Assembly (NCBI GenBank): GCA_964017185.1
Contig: OZ024875.1
Location: 46,951,986-47,015,985 of the forward strand
From: Rugalucina vietnamica
Taxonomy: Eukaryota; Mollusca; Bivalvia; Lucinida; Lucinidae
Direction of reading: 5' to 3'
DNA length: 64,000 nucleotides
The position numbers and the translations under genes are program-made. The notes below the pieces were generated by a model. That model had not been told where the DNA came from. It was given only the letters and a program-made list of their open reading frames with translations, and ran no database searches. Each line of letters begins with the position of its first letter. Position 1 is the first letter of the stretch. This document shows positions 10,301 to 55,052 of this stretch, in pieces.

Positions 10301-10507
10301 TGAGCCTCATCATGTGAAAACAAAGACGCAGATCAGCTTCGCGGTAACTGATCAGTGCCTTTGTTTTCGCTATACGGATAGTACAATGACTTTACTTTCT
10401 AAATCTAAATTTTCAAGATTCTAGCCATCTTCTCTACTTATAAGCGGCTTGGTTTGTGTCGGACCTGTTCGGAAACCACATTGTTGGTTTTCTCATGATG
10501 TGGCTCA
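10301..10507 (-). mobile_element. Nested-hairpin MITE (TGAGCC family), copy 6
   Basis: Reverse orientation. The ends are TGAGCCTCATCATG and CTCATGATGTGGCTCA. The inner hairpin has lost one side of its loop (CTTCGCGGTAACTGATCAG). Confidence 0.75.
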
Positions 10508-10550
10508 AAGTTCTGATCAAAAGCGTGGAATGGTCAGGTTCAGCTACTGG

Positions 10551-10973
10551 CCTTGTATTGTAAACAATGGGTCACAGATTTGGTCATGCATTGATTCCCT
10601 TGTATTGTAAACAATGGGTCACAGATTTGGTCATGCATTGATTCCCTTGTATTGTAAACAATGGGTCACGGATTTGGTCATGCATTGATTCCCTTGTATT
10701 GTAAACAATGGGTCACGGATTTGGTCATGCATTGATTCCCTTGTATTGTAAACAATGGGTCACAGATTTGGTCATGCATTGATTCCCTTGTATTGTAAAC
10801 AATGGGTCACAGATTTGGTCATGCATTGATTCCCTTGTATTGTAAACAATGGGTCACAGATTTGGTCATGCATTGATTCCCTTGTATTGTAAACAATGGG
10901 TCACAGATTTGGTCATGCATTGATTCCCTTGTATTGTAAACAATGGGTCACAGATTTGGTCATGCATTGATTC
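10551..10973. repeat. 47-bp minisatellite, 9 copies
   Basis: Nine consecutive 47-bp units fill exactly 423 bp. Copies are identical except that units 3 and 4 (from 10645 and 10692) share an A-to-G change (TCACGGATTT instead of TCACAGATTT). Two adjacent copies with the same variant indicate block duplication. The unit resembles the head region of the SINE-like repeat at 32050-32200. Confidence 0.95.
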
Positions 10974-11070
10974 AGGGCTTCTCCAGTCTTTCAGATGATA
11001 CTTAAAATTAAACCAAGGTCCTGTCTCCATATGACCATCACTGTTTAGTGGGACAAAAAACATAAAATCA
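10974..11070 (+). repeat. SINE-like body following the minisatellite
   Basis: CTCCAGTCTTTCAGATGATAC, AACCAAGGTCCTGTCTCCAT and the GGGACAAAAAACATAAAATC tail match 32120-32205, which is a related copy without the tandem array. Confidence 0.6.
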
Positions 11071-13089: not shown

Positions 13090-13094
13090 CAAAG

Positions 13095-13202
13095 TAAATA
13101 GTCATTAATATTATATAGAACCTCTTTTGTATACTTGCAGGTATCCGTCATCCTTTAGAGATCTGAATAAAGATAGATAGGAAAATAGCTGAATTCTATT
13201 TA
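13095..13202 (+). repeat. 5' LTR, 167 bp shorter than the 3' LTR
   Basis: 108 bp, TAAATAG to CTATTTA. It contains a TATA box (13112-13117), a likely start site at 13140 and an AATAAA (13166-13171). Compared with the 3' LTR it has one TCATCCTTT where the 3' LTR has two copies 167 bp apart, so a deletion between short direct repeats explains the difference (or a gain in the 3' copy). Confidence 0.92.
13112..13140 (+). promoter_or_regulatory. LTR promoter: TATA box and predicted start
   Basis: TATATA begins 28 bases before the G at 13140. That G opens GGTATCCGTCA, the 11-mer complementary to the primer-binding site. The spacing is that expected for a TATA-directed start. The start site is predicted, not observed. 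Confidence 0.6.
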
Positions 13203-13318
13203 TGACGGATACCTTTCCTATCAACCAAATATTCTTGAAAATAAACTAATCAAAAATTGCGCGAAAAAGTATTACATCGGTGATAGCGCAAATAGCTGAA
13301 TTCTATTTATGACGGATA
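13183..13318 (+). repeat. 29-bp direct repeat of the LTR end plus primer site in the leader
   Basis: 13183-13211 (last 20 LTR bases plus 9 leader bases) recurs exactly at 13290-13318, just before the ORF1 start. The second copy diverges after TGACGGATA (TT instead of CC), so only 9 of 11 primer-site bases are retained. Confidence 0.9.
13203..13213 (+). promoter_or_regulatory. Putative self-priming primer-binding site
   Basis: TGACGGATACC lies directly against the 3' end of the 5' LTR, where a primer-binding site must be. It is the exact reverse complement of LTR bases 13140-13150 (and 18521-18531), at the predicted RNA 5' end. It does not look like the TGG-initial complement of a tRNA 3' end. 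This is the Tf1-style geometry. Confidence 0.65.
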
Positions 13319-13338
13319 TTTTGGACTACTAACTCAAT

Positions 13339-16300
13339 ATGCCAACAGTAGAGTGCCCGGTCGATGGATGTGATTGGGAGTCCCAAGATTTAGGCGTAGA
13401 ATTCGCAGCCGCTCTAGCTGCCGCCTTACAAATCCACGATAAGGCAGCCCATCCTGCAGTCCATCAAGCACCGCCGAAGTTGAAATTAGAATCACCGTCC
13501 ATAGCAGCTGGTTGTGATCCTGATCAATGGTCTGCTTTTACCAGGCAATGGAACATGTATAAAGCAGGGATGTCCATAGCTGACAATGTCATTCCTACGG
13601 CTTTATTTTATTGTTGCGACGCCGACCTCCGAACAAATCTTATGCGGGACATTCAGGGTGATGTCGCTCAGATGGCTGAAGCCGATTTACTTGGTGCGAT
13701 TAAACGCTTGGCTGTCAAAGATGAAAGCACACTGGTCCATCGAATAAAACTGAATAGAATGACTCAATCGCCAGGACTAAGTATTAGGACTTTCCTCGCT
13801 AATCTCAGAGGCCAAGCAGCTCTGTGCCAGTATCAGGCTACATGTAAAGTACCATTGTGTACCCATGTGTTCGATTATAGTGACGAAATAATTATGGACA
13901 ATTTGATTAGGGGCATCGCAGATCCAGAGATTTTGTCGGACTTGCTTGGTGACCCACAGACTGATCGAACATTAGAAGAAACTGTATCATTCATCGCTCA
14001 GAAAGAGCAAAGCAAAGTTACCAGAAGTGCTGTAGGAGCTGATTCCGTTGGTGTGGTTAGTGCTACCCCTGCCCGCCCGAAGTCCAATTCTACATCTGGA
14101 TCTAAGTGCTGGGCATGTGGCGGCCCAGTGCACGCAAACAGAAATGATCGTAAAGCGAGGGCCAGACTTTGCGACGCTTGGACATTCACATGTACAAAAT
14201 GCCATGTCAAGGGACATTTCTCATCATTTTGCAGCAAATGTACCAGTTGTGGAACTTGGGGTCACCGTGATGCTACATCTAGAAACTGTCCACAGCATAC
14301 AAGTCGGAAACCAAGTGACCACAATTCTCGCTCCTCAGATAAGCGTATGGACATTAACAGTACGGGTTATGTCTACGATCAATTATGCTCAGCCTCGGAA
14401 GATAATCTGAATGCTAACATTGTTAACCATACGCTTGGGACAAAGGTCGATCATCATGTGTTTGACGGCAGATGGATTGCTAAACCCTCTAAACCTCACC
14501 CTATGTTAACTGTGACAGTCACCCCATTACATGAAGACCATAAGTTGTTAGGGCATCCTATACAGGACACATCTCGTCTGAAGTCTATTGACATTGCTAT
14601 GGTAGCAGACACCGGATGCCAGAGCAGCATCATGCCGTTACAGACAGTCTTAGGTCTTGGAATTACTAGACAAGACCTTCTGCCAGTCAAATTAGTAATG
14701 CGTGGTGCAATACAAGAAGATCTTAATGTAATTGGCGCGGTTATTGTTAGTGTTGAGACCCAAGGTTCTGGGCCACAGAAAAAGTCAACAAAACTCATGT
14801 GTTATGTCTCTGATGTTATGAGCAAAGCTTTCTTGTGCCGAGAAGCTCTAGAGTCTCTTGGAATTGTACATCCTGCATTTCCGGACTGTAATGTTGAATC
14901 GGAATTGTCTATTACTGCACCTATCGTAGACTCCATGGAGGCACAGTGTTCATGTCCGAGGCGTGTGAAAGAGCCTCCCAAGCTTCCGGCTTCTTTACCA
15001 CCTGGTCTATCTGGTACAGAGGAAAATGTGGATCGCTTGAGAGAATGGTTACTTGACTACTATGGTGCAACTGCGTTCAGTGTTTGCGAGCACCAGCAGT
15101 TACCCCTCATGACTGGTGAACCGCTCCAACTCCACATTGATCCTGACGCTACTCCTGTTGCCATCCATAGTCCAGCTTTGGTACCAATCCATTGGCAAGA
15201 GAAGGTACATGCAGACCTTGAGAGAGACGTTCGAATAGGGGTTCTGGAAAAAGTCCCCCCAAACACACCTACCACTTGGTGTTCTCGGATGGTTGTCACA
15301 AGCAAAGCTGACGGCACTCCTAGACGTACTGTAGATTTACAACCACTCAATAAGTGCTCTGTCCGCCAAACCCATCATGTCCCGAGTCCATTTCATCTTG
15401 CAGATCAAGTTCCACAGAATACCAAAAAGACTGTAACTGATGCATGGAATGGTTATCACTCAGTGCCTCTACGCGAAGAAGACAGACACTTTACTACATT
15501 CATCACCCCCTGGGGGCGTTACAGGTATAAGGTGGCCCCACAGGGATTTCTTGCCAGTGGTGATGCTTATAATCACCGGTTCGACGCAATCATATCTGAC
15601 TTTGCCAATAAAGTGAAGTGTGTAGATGACACTTGTATGTGGGAAAAATCCGTTGAAGCTGCATTCATCCAGACATGCCAATGGCTCGACCTGTGTGCAC
15701 GTAATGGTATAACATTGAATCCTCAGAAGTTCCAGTTCGCTCAGGACACCGTCGACTTTGCAGGGCTGACCATTACACCTACAAACATTTGCCCTAGTGC
15801 TAAATTCCTTGACGCCATTCGCGATTTTCCAGTTCCCACTGATATAACTGGTGCCAGAGCCTGGTTTGGACTTATAAATCAAGGGGCATATGCCTTTGCT
15901 ATGGCTAAACAGATGAAGCCTTTCAGAGCCCTCTTGAAGCCGTCAACCAAGTTCACCTGGAATGATGATCTCACCCACACATTCGAGAAATCCAAAGAGA
16001 TCATAATACAGGAAATGAGAGACGGTGTGCGTCTGTTTGACCCCGATCGCTTAACATGTTTGTCAACAGATTGGTCAGTTGAGGGCATCGGATTTTTTCT
16101 GATGCAGAAGTATTGTGACTGTCTTTTGAGAACGCCAGCATGTTGCCCTGATGGTTGGAAGTTGTGCCTTGTTGGCAGCAGATTCACACATCCTGCTGAG
16201 AGTCGTTATGCTCCGATAGAAGGCGAGGCTTTAGCGGTGGCTTATGCTCTCCATCAAACTCGCTACTACGTGCTTGGTTGTAAGGATCTACTTGTTGCTA

Positions 16301-16617
16301 CAGACCACAAGCCCCTTCTCCAAATACTCAATAACCGCTCGCTCACTGAGATTGACAACAGAAGGTTACTAAACCTAAAGGAACAAACGCTGGGTTACCG
16401 ATTCTCAATTATTCATGTCGCTGGTAAGAAGAACCTTGGACCTGACGCTGTATCGAGATACCCAGCCGGAAGCCCAGATCGTTTAACCCTGCCTGGGGAA
16501 CCATCAGAAATTGACTCTCTGGATGTTACAGCTGTGTCCTGTCGAGAGACACTGGCCAGTTTATGCCTTAGTGACACTCAGAGGATGAGGACATCGCCAA
16601 TGATACAGCGATGGTGA
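13339..16617 (+). CDS. Gypsy ORF1: Gag-protease-reverse transcriptase-RNase H
   Basis: 1,092 residues from a real ATG. Order: an N-terminal C2H2-like finger (C6, C11, H33, H38), a Gag region, cysteine-rich zinc knuckles including a canonical CX2CX4HX4C (C285, C288, H293, C298), an aspartic protease with DTG at D424, then reverse transcriptase whose catalytic box reads V-D-D (D763, D764) in place of the usual Y-x-D-D, and RNase H with D911 in STDWS and the later ATDHKPLL motif. The frame is open throughout with no obvious inactivating change. It provides particle assembly, protein maturation and cDNA synthesis. It stops inside the start of the integrase ORF (ATGGTGA overlap). The N-terminal finger ahead of Gag is seen in many invertebrate Gypsy elements. 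Confidence 0.93.
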   Translation: MPTVECPVDGCDWESQDLGVEFAAALAAALQIHDKAAHPAVHQAPPKLKLESPSIAAGCDPDQWSAFTRQWNMYKAGMSIADNVIPTALFYCCDADLRTNLMRDIQGDVAQMAEADLLGAIKRLAVKDESTLVHRIKLNRMTQSPGLSIRTFLANLRGQAALCQYQATCKVPLCTHVFDYSDEIIMDNLIRGIADPEILSDLLGDPQTDRTLEETVSFIAQKEQSKVTRSAVGADSVGVVSATPARPKSNSTSGSKCWACGGPVHANRNDRKARARLCDAWTFTCTKCHVKGHFSSFCSKCTSCGTWGHRDATSRNCPQHTSRKPSDHNSRSSDKRMDINSTGYVYDQLCSASEDNLNANIVNHTLGTKVDHHVFDGRWIAKPSKPHPMLTVTVTPLHEDHKLLGHPIQDTSRLKSIDIAMVADTGCQSSIMPLQTVLGLGITRQDLLPVKLVMRGAIQEDLNVIGAVIVSVETQGSGPQKKSTKLMCYVSDVMSKAFLCREALESLGIVHPAFPDCNVESELSITAPIVDSMEAQCSCPRRVKEPPKLPASLPPGLSGTEENVDRLREWLLDYYGATAFSVCEHQQLPLMTGEPLQLHIDPDATPVAIHSPALVPIHWQEKVHADLERDVRIGVLEKVPPNTPTTWCSRMVVTSKADGTPRRTVDLQPLNKCSVRQTHHVPSPFHLADQVPQNTKKTVTDAWNGYHSVPLREEDRHFTTFITPWGRYRYKVAPQGFLASGDAYNHRFDAIISDFANKVKCVDDTCMWEKSVEAAFIQTCQWLDLCARNGITLNPQKFQFAQDTVDFAGLTITPTNICPSAKFLDAIRDFPVPTDITGARAWFGLINQGAYAFAMAKQMKPFRALLKPSTKFTWNDDLTHTFEKSKEIIIQEMRDGVRLFDPDRLTCLSTDWSVEGIGFFLMQKYCDCLLRTPACCPDGWKLCLVGSRFTHPAESRYAPIEGEALAVAYALHQTRYYVLGCKDLLVATDHKPLLQILNNRSLTEIDNRRLLNLKEQTLGYRFSIIHVAGKKNLGPDAVSRYPAGSPDRLTLPGEPSEIDSLDVTAVSCRETLASLCLSDTQRMRTSPMIQRW

Positions 16618-18263
16618 TGGAAGCTTCACAAACCTTGTATGCTGTTTCCAATGTTGTCACATGGGACATGGTTCGTGAATCAACTGCCTCAGATCCAACG
16701 CTTGTCGAGCTTATGAATCACATCATTTCTGGGTTCCCAACCGACTGTAGGGAATTAGCGGTGGAGCACCGTCCTTATTATCGATATGCGGCCAGTCTTT
16801 GTGTCGTGGATGGTGTAGTCCTTTTGGGACAAAGAATCGTCATACCACCTGCACTGCGTGGACCTATCCTAGATGCCTTACATTCAGCCCACCAAGGTGT
16901 CAGTATTATGCGTGCAAGAGCGCATGACACGGTTTATTGGCCGGACATAAATGTTGACATAGCTAGAGTAAGAGATCAGTGTATGTCGTGCCACCAGATG
17001 GCGAAATCCAATCCCATGCAACCGCCCTCGGACATTAAAACTCCTGAATATCCATTTCAGATGATATGCGCTGACTATTTCACATTTAACAACACAGATT
17101 ATGTGGTGGTCGTAGACAGGTACTCCAACTGGCCAATGGTTTTCAAATCTGAATCTGGTGCAGATGGGCTGATACGGAGACTCCGCGAAACATTTGTGAC
17201 CTTTGGAATACCAGAAGAGTTAACTTCAGATGGAGGGCCTCAATTCACGGCTGGTAAAACACAAGAATTCCTTAGGTCTTGGGGTGTCAATCACAGACTT
17301 ACATCGGTTGCCAACCCTCATGCTAACTGCAGGGCCGAACTGGCTGTAAAGACCGTTAAACGGCTGTTAATGGACAACACAACATCTACTGGGTCACTGG
17401 ATATCGACAAGTTCCAGAGAGCGATGCTAACATACAGGAATTCGATTGACCCAGAAACTACAGCGTCTCCGGCTTTAATTCTGTTTGGTCGTCCGATACG
17501 AGATGCGATTCCTATATTGATGGGTAGATATTCACCACATGAAACATGGAAGGAATTGATGTCACATCGTGAATTGGCGCTTGCAAAAAGACACTCGCGT
17601 GAACATGAGAAGTGGAGTGAGCACACCAGAAAATTACCTCCCTTGCGGGTTGGAGATCATGTCTTTCTACAAAATCTTACCGGAAATCACCCGCGTAGAT
17701 GGGACCGCACTGGAACAGTGGTTGAAGTCAAACAGTTTCATCAGTATGTAGTGCGAGTGGATGGAACCGGTCGTGTAACGCTCCGTAATCGACAACATCT
17801 CCGCAAGTTCATACCATATAACAAGCGAGTTGATCCACTGCAGGGTCTTGATCATCATCCCTCTGCATCAACACGGGTTGATCCAGCAACAGTTACGAGA
17901 AATCCTGTTGACCATCAGAGCAACCACACCAAGGTAGCAATGCCACCCACTTCACCAACTCGGGGACCACCAATTGATTTACCGGTTACACGTCAGGACA
18001 GCCAAACCCAGATTGCAACCCCACCTACCTCACCAATTCGGGGTCCACCACCAAGTTTACCAGTATCTAACAATAATCTGGATTCGCCAGTTGACATGCC
18101 TACTCCTGCGGAAAGTGATCCACCGAATAGCCCGGTTGAAATTCATACACCAACCATACGCCTACCGCGAGCACTCCAGAGATTACAACCGTACAATAAA
18201 CCGGGGACCAAGGAATTGTCACCTCCAGCTCGTGCCATGCGAAGACCAAATATTGAACACTAA
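16611..18263 (+). CDS. Gypsy ORF2: integrase
   Basis: 550 residues in the -1 frame relative to ORF1, beginning ATGGTGATGG, where ORF1's TGA is embedded. An HHCC zinc-binding region (HSAHQ ... CMSC) precedes the DDE core: D155 (CADYF), D207 (TSDGG), E243 (RAELA), with exactly 35 residues between the second D and the E. A GPY/F-like module (LRVGDHVFLQ to RKFIPYNK) follows, then a proline-rich tail (PPTSP repeats) with no chromodomain visible. It inserts the cDNA. Having integrase in its own overlapping ORF implies coupled termination-reinitiation or frameshifting; the ORF2 frame is open upstream only to 16575 and I see no classical slippery heptamer there. Confidence 0.93.
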   Translation: MVMEASQTLYAVSNVVTWDMVRESTASDPTLVELMNHIISGFPTDCRELAVEHRPYYRYAASLCVVDGVVLLGQRIVIPPALRGPILDALHSAHQGVSIMRARAHDTVYWPDINVDIARVRDQCMSCHQMAKSNPMQPPSDIKTPEYPFQMICADYFTFNNTDYVVVVDRYSNWPMVFKSESGADGLIRRLRETFVTFGIPEELTSDGGPQFTAGKTQEFLRSWGVNHRLTSVANPHANCRAELAVKTVKRLLMDNTTSTGSLDIDKFQRAMLTYRNSIDPETTASPALILFGRPIRDAIPILMGRYSPHETWKELMSHRELALAKRHSREHEKWSEHTRKLPPLRVGDHVFLQNLTGNHPRRWDRTGTVVEVKQFHQYVVRVDGTGRVTLRNRQHLRKFIPYNKRVDPLQGLDHHPSASTRVDPATVTRNPVDHQSNHTKVAMPPTSPTRGPPIDLPVTRQDSQTQIATPPTSPIRGPPPSLPVSNNNLDSPVDMPTPAESDPPNSPVEIHTPTIRLPRALQRLQPYNKPGTKELSPPARAMRRPNIEH

Positions 18264-18461
18264 ATTTGAATACTATTCAGTATATGTGAACATATTGAAA
18301 ATTTCAAACATTAAGTTATGACTTTCAATGACTATGTCTTAGTTGCGTTCAGTTGTAATGTGTGGTCACAGTGATTTGATTTATGCCATCATTCTGGACA
18401 GTCATTCTTATTTTACATGGTGTTGATCGTTTAAGTTTTATCGTACCCTCAAAAACTTTTC

Positions 18462-18475
18462 CCCAAGGAGGGAGA
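18462..18475 (+). promoter_or_regulatory. Polypurine tract of the Gypsy element
   Basis: AAGGAGGGAGA directly precedes the 3' LTR, the expected position and composition for the plus-strand primer. Confidence 0.8.
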
Positions 18476-18750
18476 TAAATAGTCATTAATATTATATAGA
18501 ACCTCTTTTGTATACTTGCAGGTATCCGTCATCCTTTTCCATATTCATGCATAACGTTACACATTCAACTTTTCAAGCATAGGGGGGATGAGTAATATTG
18601 CACTATCATGGAAGTATTGTTTAGTACTTTATCTGCTTTTAAGCTAAATTGCTTATTGTTTTGTATTGTTATGTCATTCATGATGGAAAAGTATTTCATC
18701 CTTTAGAGATCTGAATAAAGATAGATAGGAAAATAGCTGAATTCTATTTA
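18476..18750 (+). repeat. 3' LTR, full length (275 bp)
   Basis: TAAATAG to CTATTTA, with the TATA box, GGTATCCGTCA at 18521-18531 and AATAAA at 18714-18719. TCATCCTTT occurs at 18529-18537 and again at 18696-18704; the interval is absent from the 5' LTR. Confidence 0.93.
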
Positions 18751-18755
18751 CAAAG

Positions 18756-42094: not shown

Positions 42095-43775
42095 TATGTA
42101 TATTAACCTTAAATTGAGGAAGTTTGTTTTACTAAGAACTGGGTTTTGCATAGGTAAACTCAATGATGACAATGATGACAATCAACAATGATGTTTATAT
42201 GACAGTGATATCATGGGCTATGATTCAAGGACAAAAATGCAAAGTTCTTTTTCCTATACTCCCAGTACTCGAGGGTCTTTATGGGACACTAGATCCAGAT
42301 GTGTAATGACCATTCTTTATTGAAAAGGCTGTGAAGAGAAGTGGCATGTAGAACCATTTAACACTTCAGACAGTAAAGGAAATAAGAATCATGGATATCA
42401 TTCTAGTATCATATACAGAAAGTCTACTTTGCGAAAGGAACATTAGACAAACCTGGCAAAATTTCATTCTATCCACAGTATCCAGCATAAGAAATGTTAA
42501 GACAAGATGATACTACATGTAGTTAACAATAAGAAACTTAAGTTCTAAGCTTATGCCCTCAAAAGAGGTACCCAGGGATCTCACTAGGATTTTGAAAACA
42601 GGAGTCCGGGACTCCTCCAAAAGAAAAAGTAGGAGTCCCAGACAAAATTTAGGAGTCCCACTATAGAAACTCAATTACAATCCTTTTTTTTTTTTTTTTT
42701 CGACCAAAAAAAAATCATAATTATTTTACCTCTTTATAAACAGGGTTTGGGGCTTCTATTTCTTAAGACAATAATGTTGGCCATGGCACTTGTCAAAACC
42801 TTACACTCACCTGATGGTATAAAATGGCATGCTTTCAATTGTAGAATTGGTTGAACTAAACATTCTTAGTAGTGTGGTTACACTGGTTAGGTACGTGTAT
42901 ATGGGGGGGGGGGGGGTCTACTCTACTAGGTAAGACCAAGAAATATGTGTAATGCACTTCAAAATTAGCTCCTTTTGTAGACAAAGCCTTTCTGTGACAT
43001 CTGTCTATCATATAATGTTAGGTGTACATCATTTACTTTCGCCTGTTCAGTAATGAGTTTGGGGTCAATGAGGGGTGACCCCTTAAAGGCTGGATTTCCT
43101 ACTGTCAATTTGGTAAGAATGATAAGATTGGCTTGCATTCTTCATTACTAAAATATAGACACTAAACCTCTTTTGAACACTTAATACAAAGTTTTACCAA
43201 CAAAATATGATTAAGAGGCAACAAGAACAAACAAATAATCACGATTCTTCCATTAATTCTAAAGTCGCGAAAACTAATGACATTTCAAAAATCGGCCCAA
43301 AAGTATAATTTTTTTTCTCTTTTTCAATTGTTTATGTAATTCAGTTGATATTTAAATGAAAATCGCTAGGTTTTCGCATGCGCACGTTCGTGACGCTTCC
43401 TGTTTTCAGGAACCTATTTTGGCTTTTTTCTCTGCATTTGGGCTGAGTCATTGGACTATTTATTACTTATCCTTCTTTTCAATGTTAACCCTCTCCAACT
43501 TTAGTATCTGTCCCAATTTTTTGTTGTTTATTTAGAAGTTTCTAATTTTTATTGTCCCGGATAAATTACACCGGATAATTTAGGCCCATTCACCGGTTTC
43601 AACACTTCCGGAAGGATTGAACCTGAACACAAACATTGAAAAAACCAAATAAATGTAGGTAACCTCCCAAATTAGGATTGTACTCATTGTTGATTTAGTA
43701 AGATAGGAGAATTTCCCAGTAATCTACACCAGTCAATTGCCCCTCATATCGCAAGAGGTCACAAATAGCAAGAAG

Positions 43776-46700
43776 ATGAAGCACTTCTTATTTGACATGC
43801 TATTTTCTGTTGCTGGCTTGCTGTTGGCCATCAGATTGACACATTTTTGGAATACACAGGACAATGACATTGGGAGACTTCCAGTTAACTTGTTTCCAGT
43901 TTACTCCAGCATACACGGAACAGCAATTGACCAACAACTTATGGCTCACGTACCACACTTTTGCAGTGTTTCTATTCTAAGGGCTAGTCTCAGGTTTAAA
44001 GATCACCGCTCTGGTAAGCTCATTCATTTATACATTTTTACTCTTCTGATAAGTAACTCCTGGGACACCGAAACAAATCCTGGTCCAGAATCCCTTATTG
44101 ACAACTCTCACTTTCCGTGTGGACTGTGTGATGTCAGTGTTGGATGGGATGACCGCGGGATTTGTTGCGACTCGTGCAACATCTGGTACCATATAGACTG
44201 TCAAGGCATGACTTCAACTATGTATGGGATTTACAATAAATCACTTAGCAAAAGTATAGCATGGGAATGCATACGTTGTGGAATGCCAAACTTTTCCACT
44301 TCGTTGTTTGACACTACAGCTTCTCTTGAGATATCCAACAGATTTGAGTCCCTTTCGTCCCTGTCCGAGCCTGACAGTCCGATACCAGACAATATTGGCC
44401 CCCCCAATGCAGCTTCTTCGCCTATTGTGCAAACAAAAGAAGCAAAACCCAGGACCAAAAGGGCGGTCCTGAACCATCCCTTGAGAATTTTGATCATGAA
44501 TTGTCAGTCAATTAAAAATAAAAAGGCTGAAATTCACACTGTCATAGAATCGGCTAAACCTGACATCATATTGGGGAATGAGTCATGGTTAACCCCAGAC
44601 ATTAAAAACTCAGAGATTTTTCCAGATTCCTTTGATGCTATCCGGAAAGACAGAGCTAGTGATGCGCATGGTGGTGTTTTCATTGCTTTTAGGCGTGATC
44701 TTCTCTGTACTGAAGCTCCGGAATTGGACACCAAGTGCGAAATAATTTGGTGTAAGTTGAACATTATTGGATGTAGGACTTTGTACCTTGGATCATTCTA
44801 TCGTCCCCCTAGGTTCCCAACTCAGGAGCTTGAACTGAAATATCTTGAGGATTTTAATACTTCACTTTCTCGGATTATGTCAAATAAAAATGCCCATGTT
44901 CTTGTAGGCGGTGACTTCAATTGTGGTGATATTGAGTGGAGCACAATGCAGGTACCCGAGGGGGTCAAAAAGAGGCCAGTTCAGACTAAACTTGTGGACA
45001 TAATACAGGATCACTGCCTCTCCCAAATGGTAAATATACACACCCGAGAAGACAAGACCCTTGATTTACTCTTCACTAACTCGCCATCCCCAATTAACCG
45101 TGTTAAAGGGATGCCCCCGATCGGCAAAGCAGATCATGACATTGTCTATATTGAATATGACATAAAGGCTAAACGGATTCAGCAGGCCCCGCGTAAGATT
45201 TTCCTATATAAACGAGCGGATATGGACGGTCTCCATGACCATCTAGCGCGCTATAGGGATTCGTTCCTTTCAACTGACCATAGTCAGGTGTCAGTCAATG
45301 ACATGTGGGTCAGTTTTAAGTCGGAGGTTCTCTCGGCTATTGAAAGGTTTATTCCATCAAAAATGACCAAGACAAAATATAGCTTACCATGGATCGATAG
45401 CTCGATCAAACGCTTGATAAGGAAACGTGATAAACTTTACTTTCGTGCTCGCAAGTCAAGCAGCCCTGACATTAAGAACCATTACAAACGGTTCAGAGCA
45501 CATGTTCAAAAGAGCATTAGAGATGCATATTGGAAGCATATTACCAATATCTTCTCCTTTGAAAATGATAACCCTGATCCCGATTGTCCCCGAAAAAATG
45601 AAAAGGCAAAAAAGTTTTGGTCATTTGTCAAGTCCCTTAAGAAAGACGCGTCTGGGATCAATACTCTTAGAGAAAATGGTATCTTGAAGACTGACACTTT
45701 GGATAAGGCTAATATTTGTAATAGGCAGTTTCAGTCAGCCTTCACTCGCGAATCAGATGATGAAATCCCCTCCAAAGGCACAAGTCCTTTCACCGCTATG
45801 GGTGAAATTACAGTTGACCCCAATGGGGTCATTAAACTGTTGAATAATTTGAATATACATAAGGCGCCTGGGCCAGATGGCCTGAGTGCTAGGGTGTTGA
45901 AGGAATGTAGTTCTGAAATTGCTCCTGTACTGACCTATATCTTCAATGAGTCGCTTGCTCAGGGTGCTGTACCAGACGATTGGCGACAGGCAAATGTAGC
46001 CCCGGTATTTAAGAAAGGTGAGAAATACGATGCAGCTAATTATCGACCGGTGTCGCTTACTTGTATCTGTTGCAAAACTCTAGAGCATATAATAGTCAGC
46101 AACATAAACAAACACTTGGCTCTTGAAAACATTCTTGCTGACTGTCAGCATGGGTTCCGAAGTCAAAGGTCTTGCGAAACCCAGTTAGTTCAGTTTTATC
46201 ATGATTTGGTTAGTAATCTGGACCGAGCAGTGGGTCGTGGCCACAGGCAGACGGATGTGATTGTCATGGATTTCGCTAAGGCCTTTGACAAGGTCCCACA
46301 TAAAAGGTTATTATACAAACTTGACTTCTACGGGATTAGAGGATCTACACATAAGTGGATCGACTCGTGGCTCTCTGAGCGCTCTCAAAAAGTGGTATTA
46401 GATGGCCGTGCCTCAGACCCAGTCCCGGTTCTTTCTGGTGTCCCACAAGGATCGGTCTTAGGACCGGTCCTATTTCTTATTTTCATTAATGATCTTCCTG
46501 ACAACATCAGGTCATCTGTTCGGCTATTTGCTGATGATTGTGTTTTATACAGAAATGTCAAGTCACCATTGGATTGTCAAATTTTACAAGATGACCTGAA
46601 TAGCTTGGCCAAATGGGAAATGGATTGGCAAATGAAATTCAATGTTAGCAAATGTCATTCAATGAGGGTGACGCGGCTACATCCAAGCAGGCATATAGAT

Positions 46701-47330
46701 TTCAATTACACACTGCATCAGCAAACATTAGAACAGGTTCAGTCCGCTAAATACCTCGGTTTAACTATCACAGATGATCTTGATTGGGGTCAACACATTT
46801 CTGAAATTACATGCAAGGCAACTAAGACTTTGGGTTTTCTTCGGCGCAATTTGGCACTGGCACCTAGGCATACTAAGGAAGTTGCATACAAAACATTGGT
46901 TCGGCCTCAACTTGAGTATGCAGCTCCTATTTGGCATCCCTATCATGAAACTCAGATTGAGATGGTGGAGAAGGTGCAGAGGACTGCTGCCCGGTGGACC
47001 TGCAGGCGATGGAGGAACACCAGTAGCGTCGGTGAAATGCTAGACGAACTTGAGTGGCCATCCCTGGAGTCTCGCAGGGAGCGGTCCTCCTTAACCTTCT
47101 TCTACAAGATACACTCCGGTACAGTGTCTCTTGATAAAGACAAATACCTGACCCCGGCACCCAATCTAAGGCATACTCGGGCATCACATGAATCACAATA
47201 CACAAGACAATTTGCCTATAGTGATGCCCTGAAAAATTCCTTTTTCCCCAGAACTATTCCGGTTTGGAATAGTCTCCCTTCTTCAGTGGTCCTATCTAAG
47301 ACCATTGAGGAATTTAAGGCTTCTATTTAA
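43776..47330 (+). CDS. CR1/Jockey-like non-LTR polyprotein: leader-2A-PHD-endonuclease-RT
   Basis: 1,184 residues from the first in-frame ATG (43776); an in-frame stop at 43704 excludes an earlier ATG. A hydrophobic N-terminus (about residues 5-25) leads to a 2A-like DTETNPGP (residues 97-104), then a PHD finger (C115, C118, C131, C134, H139, C142, C165, C168). The apurinic-type endonuclease follows: N242, E269, GGDFN (D380), LDLLFTN, and ADHD with H454. The reverse transcriptase runs from about residue 695 to 930, with DFAKAFDK (D832) and catalytic FADD (918-921). The C-terminal part ends with a WNSLP motif. The enzyme nicks target DNA and copies its RNA onto it. The frame is intact, so the copy may be young. 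No separate ORF1 was found upstream. Confidence 0.93.
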   Translation: MKHFLFDMLFSVAGLLLAIRLTHFWNTQDNDIGRLPVNLFPVYSSIHGTAIDQQLMAHVPHFCSVSILRASLRFKDHRSGKLIHLYIFTLLISNSWDTETNPGPESLIDNSHFPCGLCDVSVGWDDRGICCDSCNIWYHIDCQGMTSTMYGIYNKSLSKSIAWECIRCGMPNFSTSLFDTTASLEISNRFESLSSLSEPDSPIPDNIGPPNAASSPIVQTKEAKPRTKRAVLNHPLRILIMNCQSIKNKKAEIHTVIESAKPDIILGNESWLTPDIKNSEIFPDSFDAIRKDRASDAHGGVFIAFRRDLLCTEAPELDTKCEIIWCKLNIIGCRTLYLGSFYRPPRFPTQELELKYLEDFNTSLSRIMSNKNAHVLVGGDFNCGDIEWSTMQVPEGVKKRPVQTKLVDIIQDHCLSQMVNIHTREDKTLDLLFTNSPSPINRVKGMPPIGKADHDIVYIEYDIKAKRIQQAPRKIFLYKRADMDGLHDHLARYRDSFLSTDHSQVSVNDMWVSFKSEVLSAIERFIPSKMTKTKYSLPWIDSSIKRLIRKRDKLYFRARKSSSPDIKNHYKRFRAHVQKSIRDAYWKHITNIFSFENDNPDPDCPRKNEKAKKFWSFVKSLKKDASGINTLRENGILKTDTLDKANICNRQFQSAFTRESDDEIPSKGTSPFTAMGEITVDPNGVIKLLNNLNIHKAPGPDGLSARVLKECSSEIAPVLTYIFNESLAQGAVPDDWRQANVAPVFKKGEKYDAANYRPVSLTCICCKTLEHIIVSNINKHLALENILADCQHGFRSQRSCETQLVQFYHDLVSNLDRAVGRGHRQTDVIVMDFAKAFDKVPHKRLLYKLDFYGIRGSTHKWIDSWLSERSQKVVLDGRASDPVPVLSGVPQGSVLGPVLFLIFINDLPDNIRSSVRLFADDCVLYRNVKSPLDCQILQDDLNSLAKWEMDWQMKFNVSKCHSMRVTRLHPSRHIDFNYTLHQQTLEQVQSAKYLGLTITDDLDWGQHISEITCKATKTLGFLRRNLALAPRHTKEVAYKTLVRPQLEYAAPIWHPYHETQIEMVEKVQRTAARWTCRRWRNTSSVGEMLDELEWPSLESRRERSSLTFFYKIHSGTVSLDKDKYLTPAPNLRHTRASHESQYTRQFAYSDALKNSFFPRTIPVWNSLPSSVVLSKTIEEFKASI
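44064..44087 (+). promoter_or_regulatory. 2A-like ribosome-skipping motif DTETNPGP
   Basis: Matches D-x-E-x-N-P-G-P, with the expected skip between G and the final P (residues 103/104). The canonical motif has V or I after D; here it is T, which could lower efficiency. It sits after a hydrophobic leader, as in 2A-bearing non-LTR elements described from sea urchin and mollusc genomes. Confidence 0.75.
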
Positions 47331-52058: not shown

Positions 52059-55052
52059 CAAGCAAGTTTTAATGATGTAAATAGTGCCACCCATAACAAA
52101 ATAAATGGTGGAAATTTTAAGGTTTTTAACAAGAGTTTTAATCAGTTGAAAATTTTATATACAAATGCTGATTGTTTCACTGTTACAAAACAAACTGAAC
52201 TTAAATGTTACATTGAAGACAAATCTCCAGACATAATAGCAATAACTGAAATTTTGCCGAAAAACACGAACTTCGATATAGATAGTTCGCACTATGAAAT
52301 CGAAGGTTATTCTATGTTTACTTCAGATCTAACAACTGGACGTGGATGTGCATTATATGTCAAATCTGAAATTCCTGTAACACTTACAAAACTTAACAAT
52401 GATTTCCAAGAATGTATATGGTGCAATATAAAATTGACTGGTTCTGATAACCTTATGATAGGGTGTGTATATAGGAGTCCCAGTAGCAATTCAGATAACA
52501 ATCAGAAACTCTTAGAAATGTTTTTAAATGTCAAGGACTTAAACCCCAGCCACTTGTTGATAATGGGTGATTTTAACCTGAAAGAAATTGACTGGAACAT
52601 AAATAATTCAAGATCTACTGAAGTACATATTGCATCCCAGTTCCTGGAGTGTGTCAGGGATTGTTTTTTATATCAACATGTCAAGAACTATACCAGGTAC
52701 AGATCTGGGTTTGAACCATCATTACTAGACTTAGTATTCACTAACGAGGAAAACATGATTGAATCCATAAACCACATGTCAGGGCTTGGTAAAAGTGACC
52801 ATCTTCAACTTGAGTTTATATTTAACTGTTATACTGAAATTACACAAACATTGGTTACAAAATTAAATTTTTTCAAAGGAAATTATACCAGCTTGTCTGG
52901 AGAACTTGCCCGTTTGAATTGGCTCCAAGAATTCAATGGATGTGACTTATCTGCCTCATGGGAAAAACTTACAGAGAAATTATCCAATTTAATAGAATCC
53001 CACATACCAGTGAGTAAGGTTTCCTCTGGGTCGGCTAAGAAGTCTCCATATATAACCCAAAGATGCCATGAAGCTATCCGAAAAAAGCATACCAAATGGG
53101 AAAAGTATCTCCACTGTAAAACAAATCAAAATTATGAAATTTATAAAGAATCTAGAAACATTGTAAAAGCTGAAATGCGAAGATCTAAATATGAGTATGA
53201 AAAAGACCTGACCACCAAGATAAAAACTGATTCGAAATTGTTTTGGAGTTATGTAAGATCTAAACAGAAAACCAAGGGGAAACTAGGGCAGTTAGAAACA
53301 GAAAATGGTACCCTGACCAACGATAGTCTAGTTAAAGCAGAGGTGCTGAACAGTTATTTTGCAAGTGTTTTTGAAACAGAAGATCCAGGAGCTCTCCCTG
53401 AATTTATTGATAGAGATTTTGATGAAGTTTTAAGTCATATTGAAATAACAGAAACATTAGTTGAAAAAACAATAGATCGTCTAAAACCTTCAAAATCACA
53501 AGGTCCAGACAATATTCATCCAAAATTAGTGAAAGAGTGTAAAAAATCAATAATAACACCATTAACTATGATCTTTAAAAAGTCATTACAAGAATCTGTT
53601 TTACCCAGTATTTGGAAGCAAGCAAACGTGACTGCAATTTACAAAAAGGGACTTAGAACAAAACCACAAAACTACCGCCCCATCAGTTTAACATCGGTTC
53701 CATGCAAACTTATGGAGAGAATTATAAGAGACCACATAGTTGAACATATGACAAGAAATGATTTTTTTAGTCCCTTTCAACATGGTTTCGTATCTGGTAA
53801 ATCTTGTGTAACCCAATTATTAGAATTTCTTGACAACCTAACAGAGGCACTAGATCAAGGTGATGACGTTGACATTATTTACTTAGATTTTTCCAAGGCC
53901 TTCGATAAATTACAACATAGAAGATTAATGAAAAAGTTATGGGGATATGGAATTCGTGGAAAAGTATACAAATGGATCAAAGAATTTTTGGCAAACAGAA
54001 CCCAGCAAGTCGTCGTGGATGGACAATCATCCAGTACTAAGCCAGTCACATCTGGAGTGCCTCAAGGCAGTGTCTTGGGACCCATTCTCTTTGTCATTTA
54101 CATAAATGACCTTCCAGATGTCATACAGTGCTGCATACGACTTTTTGCTGATGATTCAAAGATTTATTGGAGAGTATCAAGAATAGAACACGTTGAAATT
54201 CTGCAATCATGCTTAAACAAGGCTGTAACATGGGCCGATATCTGGGAAATGTTTTTTAACCTTCTGAAATGCCATCACCTTCATGTAGGGAAAAATTCTA
54301 TGGGACAAATTTACACAATGCAGTCACCAGATGGAGAAGTCAGGTTAGAAACGGTTGAATCAGAGAAAGACTTAGGTGTAATCATTGACAGTGCTTTATC
54401 ATTTGGAGAACACATTGGTAGTAAGATCTCAATTGCCAATAGAAACCTGGGACTAATTTTTAAAACATTCACATTTATGGATAAAGATATGTTTCTAAAT
54501 CTTTTCAAATCATTGGTGAGACCACACCTGGAGTATGCCTCCACTGTGTGGTCACCACAACACAAAAAGGATATGATTGCAATTGAAAATGTTCAACGAA
54601 GAGCAACTCGAATGTTATCATGCTTGAGAGGTAAAACATACCCAGAAAGATTGAAAATTCTAGGCTTGCCATCATTAGAATACAGAAGGGAAAGGGCTGA
54701 TATGGTTCAGGTTTATAAAATCATGAATGACATTGATATGGTAAACAAAGAGAAACTGTTCACAATGTCGCAGTATACAGGAACACGAGGTCACTCTTTC
54801 AAAATCTACAAGAAAAGGTTTAGACTGAATATCAGAGGAAATTACTTTAGCAACAGAGTTGTAGAGCAGTGGAATGAGCTCCCAGAACATACTGTTATGG
54901 CACCCACTCTCAATAGTTTTAAGAGTAGACTTAATAAGTGTTGGCATGGGCATCCCCATAAGTTCAACCCCTGGTGCTATATTCCCGGCGAAAGGACAAG
55001 ACACTGGCAAAGACATCCAAACACATCAACAGAGGTTGCAGAGCCTAATTAG
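52059..55052 (+). CDS. Non-LTR ORF2: endonuclease-reverse transcriptase with no usable ATG
   Basis: The frame is open from the codon after ORF1's TAA to 55052. The endonuclease starts at ILYTNADC (about 52149) and runs through ITEI, YRSP, GDFN, LDLVFTN and SDH. The reverse transcriptase has SGVPQGSVLGP and FADD (54144-54155), followed by the usual C-terminal thumb region. The first in-frame ATG is at 52314, inside the endonuclease and past its first two catalytic motifs, so a protein starting there would be broken. Expression therefore needs read-through of the TAA (next codons CAA GCA), non-AUG initiation, or this copy has lost its start. Otherwise intact, about 998 codons from the stop. Confidence 0.9.
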   Translation, partial: QASFNDVNSATHNKINGGNFKVFNKSFNQLKILYTNADCFTVTKQTELKCYIEDKSPDIIAITEILPKNTNFDIDSSHYEIEGYSMFTSDLTTGRGCALYVKSEIPVTLTKLNNDFQECIWCNIKLTGSDNLMIGCVYRSPSSNSDNNQKLLEMFLNVKDLNPSHLLIMGDFNLKEIDWNINNSRSTEVHIASQFLECVRDCFLYQHVKNYTRYRSGFEPSLLDLVFTNEENMIESINHMSGLGKSDHLQLEFIFNCYTEITQTLVTKLNFFKGNYTSLSGELARLNWLQEFNGCDLSASWEKLTEKLSNLIESHIPVSKVSSGSAKKSPYITQRCHEAIRKKHTKWEKYLHCKTNQNYEIYKESRNIVKAEMRRSKYEYEKDLTTKIKTDSKLFWSYVRSKQKTKGKLGQLETENGTLTNDSLVKAEVLNSYFASVFETEDPGALPEFIDRDFDEVLSHIEITETLVEKTIDRLKPSKSQGPDNIHPKLVKECKKSIITPLTMIFKKSLQESVLPSIWKQANVTAIYKKGLRTKPQNYRPISLTSVPCKLMERIIRDHIVEHMTRNDFFSPFQHGFVSGKSCVTQLLEFLDNLTEALDQGDDVDIIYLDFSKAFDKLQHRRLMKKLWGYGIRGKVYKWIKEFLANRTQQVVVDGQSSSTKPVTSGVPQGSVLGPILFVIYINDLPDVIQCCIRLFADDSKIYWRVSRIEHVEILQSCLNKAVTWADIWEMFFNLLKCHHLHVGKNSMGQIYTMQSPDGEVRLETVESEKDLGVIIDSALSFGEHIGSKISIANRNLGLIFKTFTFMDKDMFLNLFKSLVRPHLEYASTVWSPQHKKDMIAIENVQRRATRMLSCLRGKTYPERLKILGLPSLEYRRERADMVQVYKIMNDIDMVNKEKLFTMSQYTGTRGHSFKIYKKRFRLNIRGNYFSNRVVEQWNELPEHTVMAPTLNSFKSRLNKCWHGHPHKFNPWCYIPGERTRHWQRHPNTSTEVAEPN

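Follow-up and report, generated by a model that had tools for sequence, protein, structure and literature searches.

In Tf1, a member of the Tf1/sushi group, reverse transcription is primed by the RNA of the element itself, and the primer is an 11-nt segment cut between bases 11 and 12, as given in the available part of PMC7175516. Accessory "pretzel" duplexes of Tf1 RNA are described in the accessible text of PMC10085805, which also states that the LTRs of fission-yeast elements always end in CA. Further predictions of self-priming concern two kinds of plant element, Tcn1 chromoviruses and the Ty1/copia elements called TAR (PMC6317226, in the part available). Across the portions of the literature covered (including PMC6934838, PMC5006619, PMC6317226, PMC7175516, PMC10085805, PMC3601003 and PMC4600332), reports and predictions concern Tf1/sushi, Tcn1 and plant TAR elements, and among the gypsy elements treated there self-priming is linked to chromoviruses of the Tf1/sushi and Tcn1 kinds. 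In the accessible portions of the open-licence PMC literature, we found no case of self-priming in chromodomain-free animal gypsy elements. The gypsy diversity of molluscs and annelids has been described in terms of MolGy/PolGy and LGF Gypsy clades (PMC6238403, PMC8556966, PMC8220671); the available portions of PMC6238403 and PMC8556966 mention neither a primer-binding site (PBS) nor self-priming, and that of PMC8220671 refers to the PBS in a general description only.

Here we analysed a 64,000-nucleotide stretch of the genome of the bivalve Rugalucina vietnamica (the window), in which an LTR retrotransposon occupies positions 13095-18750, with CAAAG on either side. This element very probably represents a chromodomain-free Ty3/gypsy lineage whose reverse transcription is primed by its own RNA. 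It is laid out as follows.

13090..13094, + strand: left target-site duplication (TSD) CAAAG, an exact match to 18751-18755
13095..13202, + strand: 5′ LTR in its short form, 108 bp, TAAATAG...CTATTTA (repeats D14 and D16)
13183..13201, + strand: small U5-IR-like hairpin AAATAG/CTATTT just 5′ of the PBS, a weak candidate
13339..16617, + strand: open reading frame with reverse transcriptase (RT) and RNase H (Pfam domains)
16575..18263, + strand: open reading frame with integrase (H2C2, rve) and no chromodomain (Pfam domains)
18465..18475, + strand: polypurine tract AAGGAGGGAGA, adjoining the 3′ LTR, recognized by eye
18476..18750, + strand: 3′ LTR in its long form, 275 bp, delimited by comparison of the 5′ and 3′ repeats
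18751..18755, + strand: right TSD CAAAG, matching the left one

The first of these frames also contains, by eye, a zinc-finger-like gag region and a protease-like DTG, and the integrase frame overlaps it in a different phase. Because close relatives keep a single unbroken frame (1631-1638 aa in three family B copies, for example, and P0003, which is 99% identical), the break looks like damage to this one copy. The closest named homologue, at 73% identity, belongs to the clam Mya arenaria, and the pol order RT-RNase H-integrase, seen in the window frames and in the full-length relative P0091, is that of Ty3/gypsy elements (Metaviridae). A preliminary description of this DNA had stated that the integrase shows no chromodomain, and this holds for the window frames (E≤1e-3, with the integrase frame rechecked at E≤1). 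It extends to the relatives, as PF00385 is listed for none of the 96 best homologues (P0003-P0098, precomputed domains); an integrase core is recorded for 77 of these, which can therefore be judged. A 5-bp TSD was present in 10 of the 14 copies examined at both ends (the window copy, L014, L015, L016, L018, L021, L022, L023, L026 and L073); a matching TSD is absent from L013 and from the rearranged C1 copy, and L017 (5′ LTR truncated) and L031 (flank outside the sequence covered) did not score. The hairpin at 13183-13201 was equalled, with 6 Watson-Crick pairs, by 594 of 5000 shuffles. Elsewhere in the window lie two long, LINE-like open reading frames with endonuclease and reverse transcriptase domains (43707-47330 and 52059-55052) and a tandem array with a 47-bp period (10457-11067).

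The case for self-priming starts from two complementary arms, one inside the 5′ LTR and the other immediately behind it.

13139..13150, + strand: predicted self-primer AGGTATCCGTCA, with the A of the initiator-like TTGCAG as its first base and covarying with the PBS in six families
after 13150 (13150/13151), + strand: predicted RNase H cut, following TCA
13203..13214, + strand: PBS TGACGGATACCT, adjoining the LTR and complementary to 13139-13150

Recomputation reproduced the exact complementarity first noticed between 13203-13213 (TGACGGATACC) and 13140-13150, as well as the TATATAG at 13112-13118, whose first base is 28 bases ahead of 13140 and 27 ahead of 13139. The match is in fact longer: the 12 bases past the 5′ LTR (13203-13214) are the exact reverse complement of 13139-13150 in the LTR, and the complete Watson-Crick duplex measures 13 bp (13139-13151 with 13202-13214), its arms 50 nt apart. 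Within 13095-18475 the primer/PBS pair is the sole perfect inverted repeat of at least 11 nt with arms at most 400 nt apart, one further inverted pair being only 71% complementary, and the arm pairing was not matched once when the LTR was dinucleotide-shuffled 20,000 times. A match by chance, or a local inverted duplication in the window copy, could be argued from the 278 of 63,881 window positions (0.44%) that have the reverse complement of their 11-mer among the 108 bases before them, and from the two outermost bases of that 11-mer arm, which lie in captured DNA. At such a background frequency a single copy is no proof of function. The same layout with different sequences recurs in five further families, and their covariation refutes this explanation, to which we assign a negligible probability; it is this covariation in relatives that settles the primer/PBS pairing as real.

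Relatives were collected from the host genome (1.09 Gb, 47 contigs) by a six-frame search with P0001, which returned at least 49 matches, 30 of which became loci L012-L041; of the 2960 candidates at first look, 42 were scored. The 26 5′ ends examined fall into five families: A with 3 (C7, which is the window copy, C1 and C8), B with 6 (L013-L015, L071-L073), C with 6 (L016-L020, L024), D with 8 (L021-L023, L025, L033, L053-L055) and E with 3 (L026, L031 and, inside L037, an E-type LTR with its PBS). Left uncounted were L035 (a fragment with no arms), L027, L030 and L034 (whose 5′ ends were taken as L053-L055), L028, L029 and L036 (repeats of the C1 and C8 copies), L038-L041 (outside the lineage) and L032, which showed no arms in 5.8 kb upstream (L056, L066) and whose 5′ end was not located. 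Arm pairing is kept in 24 of the 26, the exceptions being L055, with one mismatch, and L072, whose PBS is deleted. A sixth family is represented by L001, a circular contig of 5200 bp that was binned with a tubeworm symbiont. Its arms match perfectly over 16 nt, lie 50 nt from each other and are the one inverted repeat of at least 12 nt found in it; this contig carries one LTR, whose limits were taken from the other families. No relatives were confirmed in the IMG/VR, phage and plasmid collections. The primer and PBS of each family, both written 5′ to 3′, are:

Family A: AGGTATCCGTCA and TGACGGATATTT
Family B: AGGTAGATGTCA and TGACATCTACAG
Family C: AGACCGTGTTCA and TGAACACGGTCT
Family D: AGATCTCCATCA and TGATGGAGATTC
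Family E: AGATCCACGATCA and TGATCGTGGATTT
Tubeworm family: ATTGAGTTGCGATCA and TGATCGCAACTCAAT

Each primer pairs with the PBS of its own family, forming helices of 12, 10, 12, 11, 13 and 15 pairs in families A to E and the tubeworm family (G-U counted), with two outermost primer bases unpaired in B and one in D; the 30 cross-family helices have 3-9 pairs, 3.9 on average. Among the 720 permutations of primers over PBSs, only the observed one reaches the observed pairing total. At pair positions 4-9 every family has Watson-Crick pairs, of several types, and the only constant elements are the TCA that ends the primer and the TGA that starts the PBS. The unit of this test is the family, six in all, since copies inside one family are not independent, and covariation was counted on arms lined up gap-free from TCA and TGA, a whole-leader MAFFT alignment having misplaced the arms of D and E. 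The compensatory changes that the preliminary description had proposed to look for are thus present, both arms shifting together across the six families, and the independent drift that it had set against self-priming was not seen. Mean pairing probability in seven folded leaders ranged from 0.91 to 0.98.

The position of the arms is as informative as their pairing. The predicted primer starts at the A of CAG in an initiator-like context in families A to E (TTGCAG, TTTCAG, TTCCAG, TTTCAG and TTTCAG), the D copy L054 having TTTTAG, and at CTCATT (TCAT) in the tubeworm family. Counted from this A, it is 12, 12, 12, 12 and 13 nt long in A to E and 15 nt in the tubeworm family, and in all six it ends in TCA followed by a T. 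TATA stands at -27 in families A and B only, is found elsewhere in C, D and the tubeworm family and was not found in E, so its spacing gives the start no support outside A and B. In the window copy, we infer an RNA start at 13139, the A of the initiator-like CAG. The PBS starts one base past the LTR in the window copy and in all 11 loci where comparing the 5′ and 3′ repeats fixed the LTR end.

Covariation shows pairing and not purpose, and the RNA start itself is read from sequence. The arms might therefore form a conserved RNA hairpin with another job, such as packaging, dimerisation or translation control, with a tRNA priming elsewhere. We consider this improbable. One arm begins right behind the LTR, precisely where minus-strand DNA must begin (in the window copy and those 11 loci), and the other starts at the initiator-like CAG in five of the six families.

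A tRNA primer, ending in CCA, requires TGG in the PBS, and the distribution of this triplet bears on both readings. A tRNA 3′ end complementary from 13203 onward had been named in the preliminary description as evidence against self-priming; the window PBS has no TGG in its first 30 nt, so the idea finds no support in this copy, but families D and E carry TGG 3 and 6 nt past the LTR. A tRNA site is possible in these two, which weakens the argument against a tRNA there, counts against self-priming and favours the hairpin reading. No TGG lies within 10 nt of the LTR in the window, in families A to C or in the tubeworm family, which speaks against that reading; within 5 nt, it is missing from the window and from five of the six families, D being the exception. 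ARAGORN, run with bacterial settings, found no tRNA gene within the 64-kb window. Five gypsy copies were tried as tRNA controls, and two, from the host genome but outside the lineage (33% RT identity), gave a clear LTR end: their LTRs of about 250 bp end in ACA and are followed directly by TGG, with no self-primer. Among the others, C16 gave no LTR, C5 (of a 32% group) gave repeats only, and C12 has a repeat of 171 bp, with no TGG and no self-primer behind it.

Another form of tRNA use, in which a tRNA fragment or an internal tRNA stretch pairs with the PBS in the manner of copia half-tRNA priming, has precedent in other LTR elements (PMC6317226, in the part available). It seems to us very unlikely here, as the six PBSs share TGA alone and each would need a separate tRNA stretch, and as every PBS also matches the LTR of its own family. 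Self-priming is thus the best explanation of the arm pairing, and the suggestion made from the window copy gains support from the pairing, from its position at the LTR end and from compensatory change across the lineage; the RNA start, the cut and the priming are all predicted from these patterns. Transcription would start at 13139, and the first 12 nt of the RNA would fold back onto the PBS beside the 5′ LTR. RNase H would then cut after TCA (13150/13151), and the released 12-nt RNA would prime minus-strand DNA.

The window copy differs from its sisters in the leader, where it holds 107 nt that are extra relative to C1 and C8.

13212..13289, + strand: captured segment, missing from C1 and C8
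13290..13318, + strand: second 29-nt copy of U5 tail and PBS, an exact repeat of 13183-13211

A DNA search placed the family A LTR at no fewer than three loci, those of the window copy, C1 and C8. The two sister copies, whose 5′ ends are readable, have TGACGGATATTTTGGAC directly after the LTR, with the gag ATG 29 nt past the LTR, and carry TGACGGATATT at the position of window 13203-13213; their pairing, usual for family A, comprises 9 Watson-Crick pairs, 2 G-U pairs and 1 A-T pair. The 11-mer originally reported is therefore exact in its complementarity but not typical of the family in its outer two bases, CC, which belong to captured host DNA. Positions 13209-13293 also occur alone, in an unrelated context, on contig C5 (85 bp, 99%; G000:C5:8348369-8348453), and the PBS of the second 29-nt copy sits as in the sister copies, 29 nt ahead of the gag ATG. 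The arrangement of a captured segment between two 29-nt U5-PBS blocks looks as if reverse transcriptase had switched template and returned. No 3′ LTR was found for C8. The family A copy on C1 (L010, G000:C1:16023900-16028700) is internally rearranged: one stretch inside it is deleted, another is duplicated, and a matching TSD is absent, which looks like the outcome of recombination between two elements.

The second unusual property of the lineage is the inequality of its LTRs in families A and B.

18538..18704, + strand: piece present in the 3′ LTR only, 167 nt, made up of 158 nt and a second TCATCCTTT, from LTR comparison
18529..18537 and 18696..18704, + strand: first and second copies of TCATCCTTT

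The window 3′ LTR consists of the 108 bp of the 5′ LTR split by these 167 nt. Family A (window copy and C1) thus has a 3′ LTR of 275 bp against a 5′ LTR of 108 bp, and family B one of 311 bp against 89 bp, with an extra piece of 222 nt. All nine 5′ LTRs found are short (C7, C1, C8, L013, L014, L015, L071, L072, L073) and all eight 3′ LTRs are long (C7, C1, L042, L043, L044, L069, L070, L073), a split expected by chance once in 24,310 if the LTRs are treated as independent draws. When the long LTR of family B was used as a DNA query, 19 pieces matched, every one of which was assigned. In L073 the right part of the long LTR alone remains, and L069 lacks the last bases; L072 was called a 5′ LTR from its leader, and L069 and L070 were called 3′ LTRs from the preceding polypurine tract. 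The tandem long LTRs of L015/L043 were counted once; in L043 (354-973) two long LTRs stand in tandem at the 3′ end, with two bases common at the junction and a perfect TSD, GTACT. Perfect TSDs flank four of the uneven copies (CAAAG, ACTCC, GTACT and GGGTA), which indicates that the unevenness was there at each integration or was restored after it. Seven LTR pairs of families C, D and E are even, and the eighth (L017) is truncated.

The pieces of A and B have common ends, TTTTCCAT...ATGGAAAAG (mutated at the left end in L044), and an inner purine run, which reads GGGGGGATGAG in A (window 18538-18695) and GGGGGAGGAGAG in B (L042-L044). This run could act as a second plus-strand primer. A post-integration insertion in the window 3′ LTR was rejected, as C1 and the B copies carry a similar piece that is likewise confined to the 3′ LTR; splicing was rejected as well, because no phase of the 9-nt repeat yields GT..AG (by eye).

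In standard replication both LTRs are copied off one template and are therefore equal. We tentatively propose, giving it somewhat less than an even chance, that the LTRs of A and B are unequal by design, the primer cut keeping the piece in the 3′ LTR and a second jump in R, using an uncut second RNA, rebuilding the short 5′ LTR. The first three bases of TCATCCTTT are the last three of the primer, so the 9-nt repeat spans the predicted cut. With the primer cut off the template, strong-stop DNA would end at the complement of TCCTTT and lack the primer sequence, and the second TCATCCTTT in the 3′ end of the RNA would be the sole site from which it runs on into U5. Landing there, its extension would copy the piece, and the 3′ LTR would stay long in each cycle. 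If a tRNA were the primer instead, strong-stop DNA would contain the whole R and match the first site, and the piece would disappear. A canonical, PBS-mediated plus-strand transfer would lengthen the 5′ LTR as well, so the short 5′ LTR observed calls for an unusual second strand transfer: either the transfer would take place in R after the minus strand copies an uncut second RNA, or the piece would be skipped as a hairpin between the 9-nt repeats. We know of no other LTR element with a two-RNA, R-mediated plus-strand transfer. If true, the transfer would have a natural genetic marker in the uneven LTRs; these break the one-template rule and would let strand transfers be read from genomic copies. 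They also call for caution, since requiring equal LTRs misleads the finding and dating of such elements.

Self-priming in a chromodomain-free gypsy lineage, with covariation, suggests an older mechanism or a repeated origin. It would free the element from host tRNAs, which bears on host-to-host spread and on tRNA-fragment defence. The label Tf1-like, used in the preliminary description, suits the mode of action but not the kinship, given the missing chromodomain, the separate RT clade and LTR ends of TA..TA. A 43-row tree of RT-RNase H recovers the lineage as a 20-row clade (100/100) on a long branch, apart from the Chromo/SH3_Tf2-1 proteins; this tree is midpoint-rooted, carries long-branch warnings and has as references unnamed or host-named Chromo and SH3_Tf2-1 proteins, with no named Tf1. 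A Tf1/sushi kinship is accordingly not supported by the sequences, and the lineage may lie inside the MolGy/PolGy or LGF clades.

With Tf1/sushi elements (Tf1, Tf2, Tj1 and sushi) the lineage shares an RNA 5′ end, here a predicted one, that is complementary to an LTR-adjacent PBS. It differs from them in lacking a chromodomain and in the uneven LTRs of two families, in LTR ends of TA..TA where fission-yeast elements have CA, and in a primer that we infer to be 12-13 nt long, or 15 in the tubeworm family, against 11 nt in Tf1. The central duplex of the Tf1 pretzel is present, whereas the accessory duplexes have no consistent counterpart: they beat most shuffles in some families only, and one of those in the window falls in captured DNA. 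A 9-bp GATAGGAAA/TTTCCTATC duplex by the window PBS, considered as a third Tf1 duplex, was rejected as a family feature because the sister copies lack that stretch and the other families have no consistent counterpart. As regards the inequality of LTRs, the only title on the subject in the accessible open-licence PMC literature concerns HIV-1 proviruses, whose 5′ and 3′ LTRs can likewise be unequal (PMC9278108, in the part available); in contrast to these, families A and B show the same unequal state in every copy found. The Tcn1 and TAR elements resemble the present lineage in a self-complementary PBS inferred from sequence, and differ in that they come from plants and are a chromovirus and a copia element, respectively, whereas the lineage described here is a chromodomain-free gypsy lineage with family-by-family covariation.
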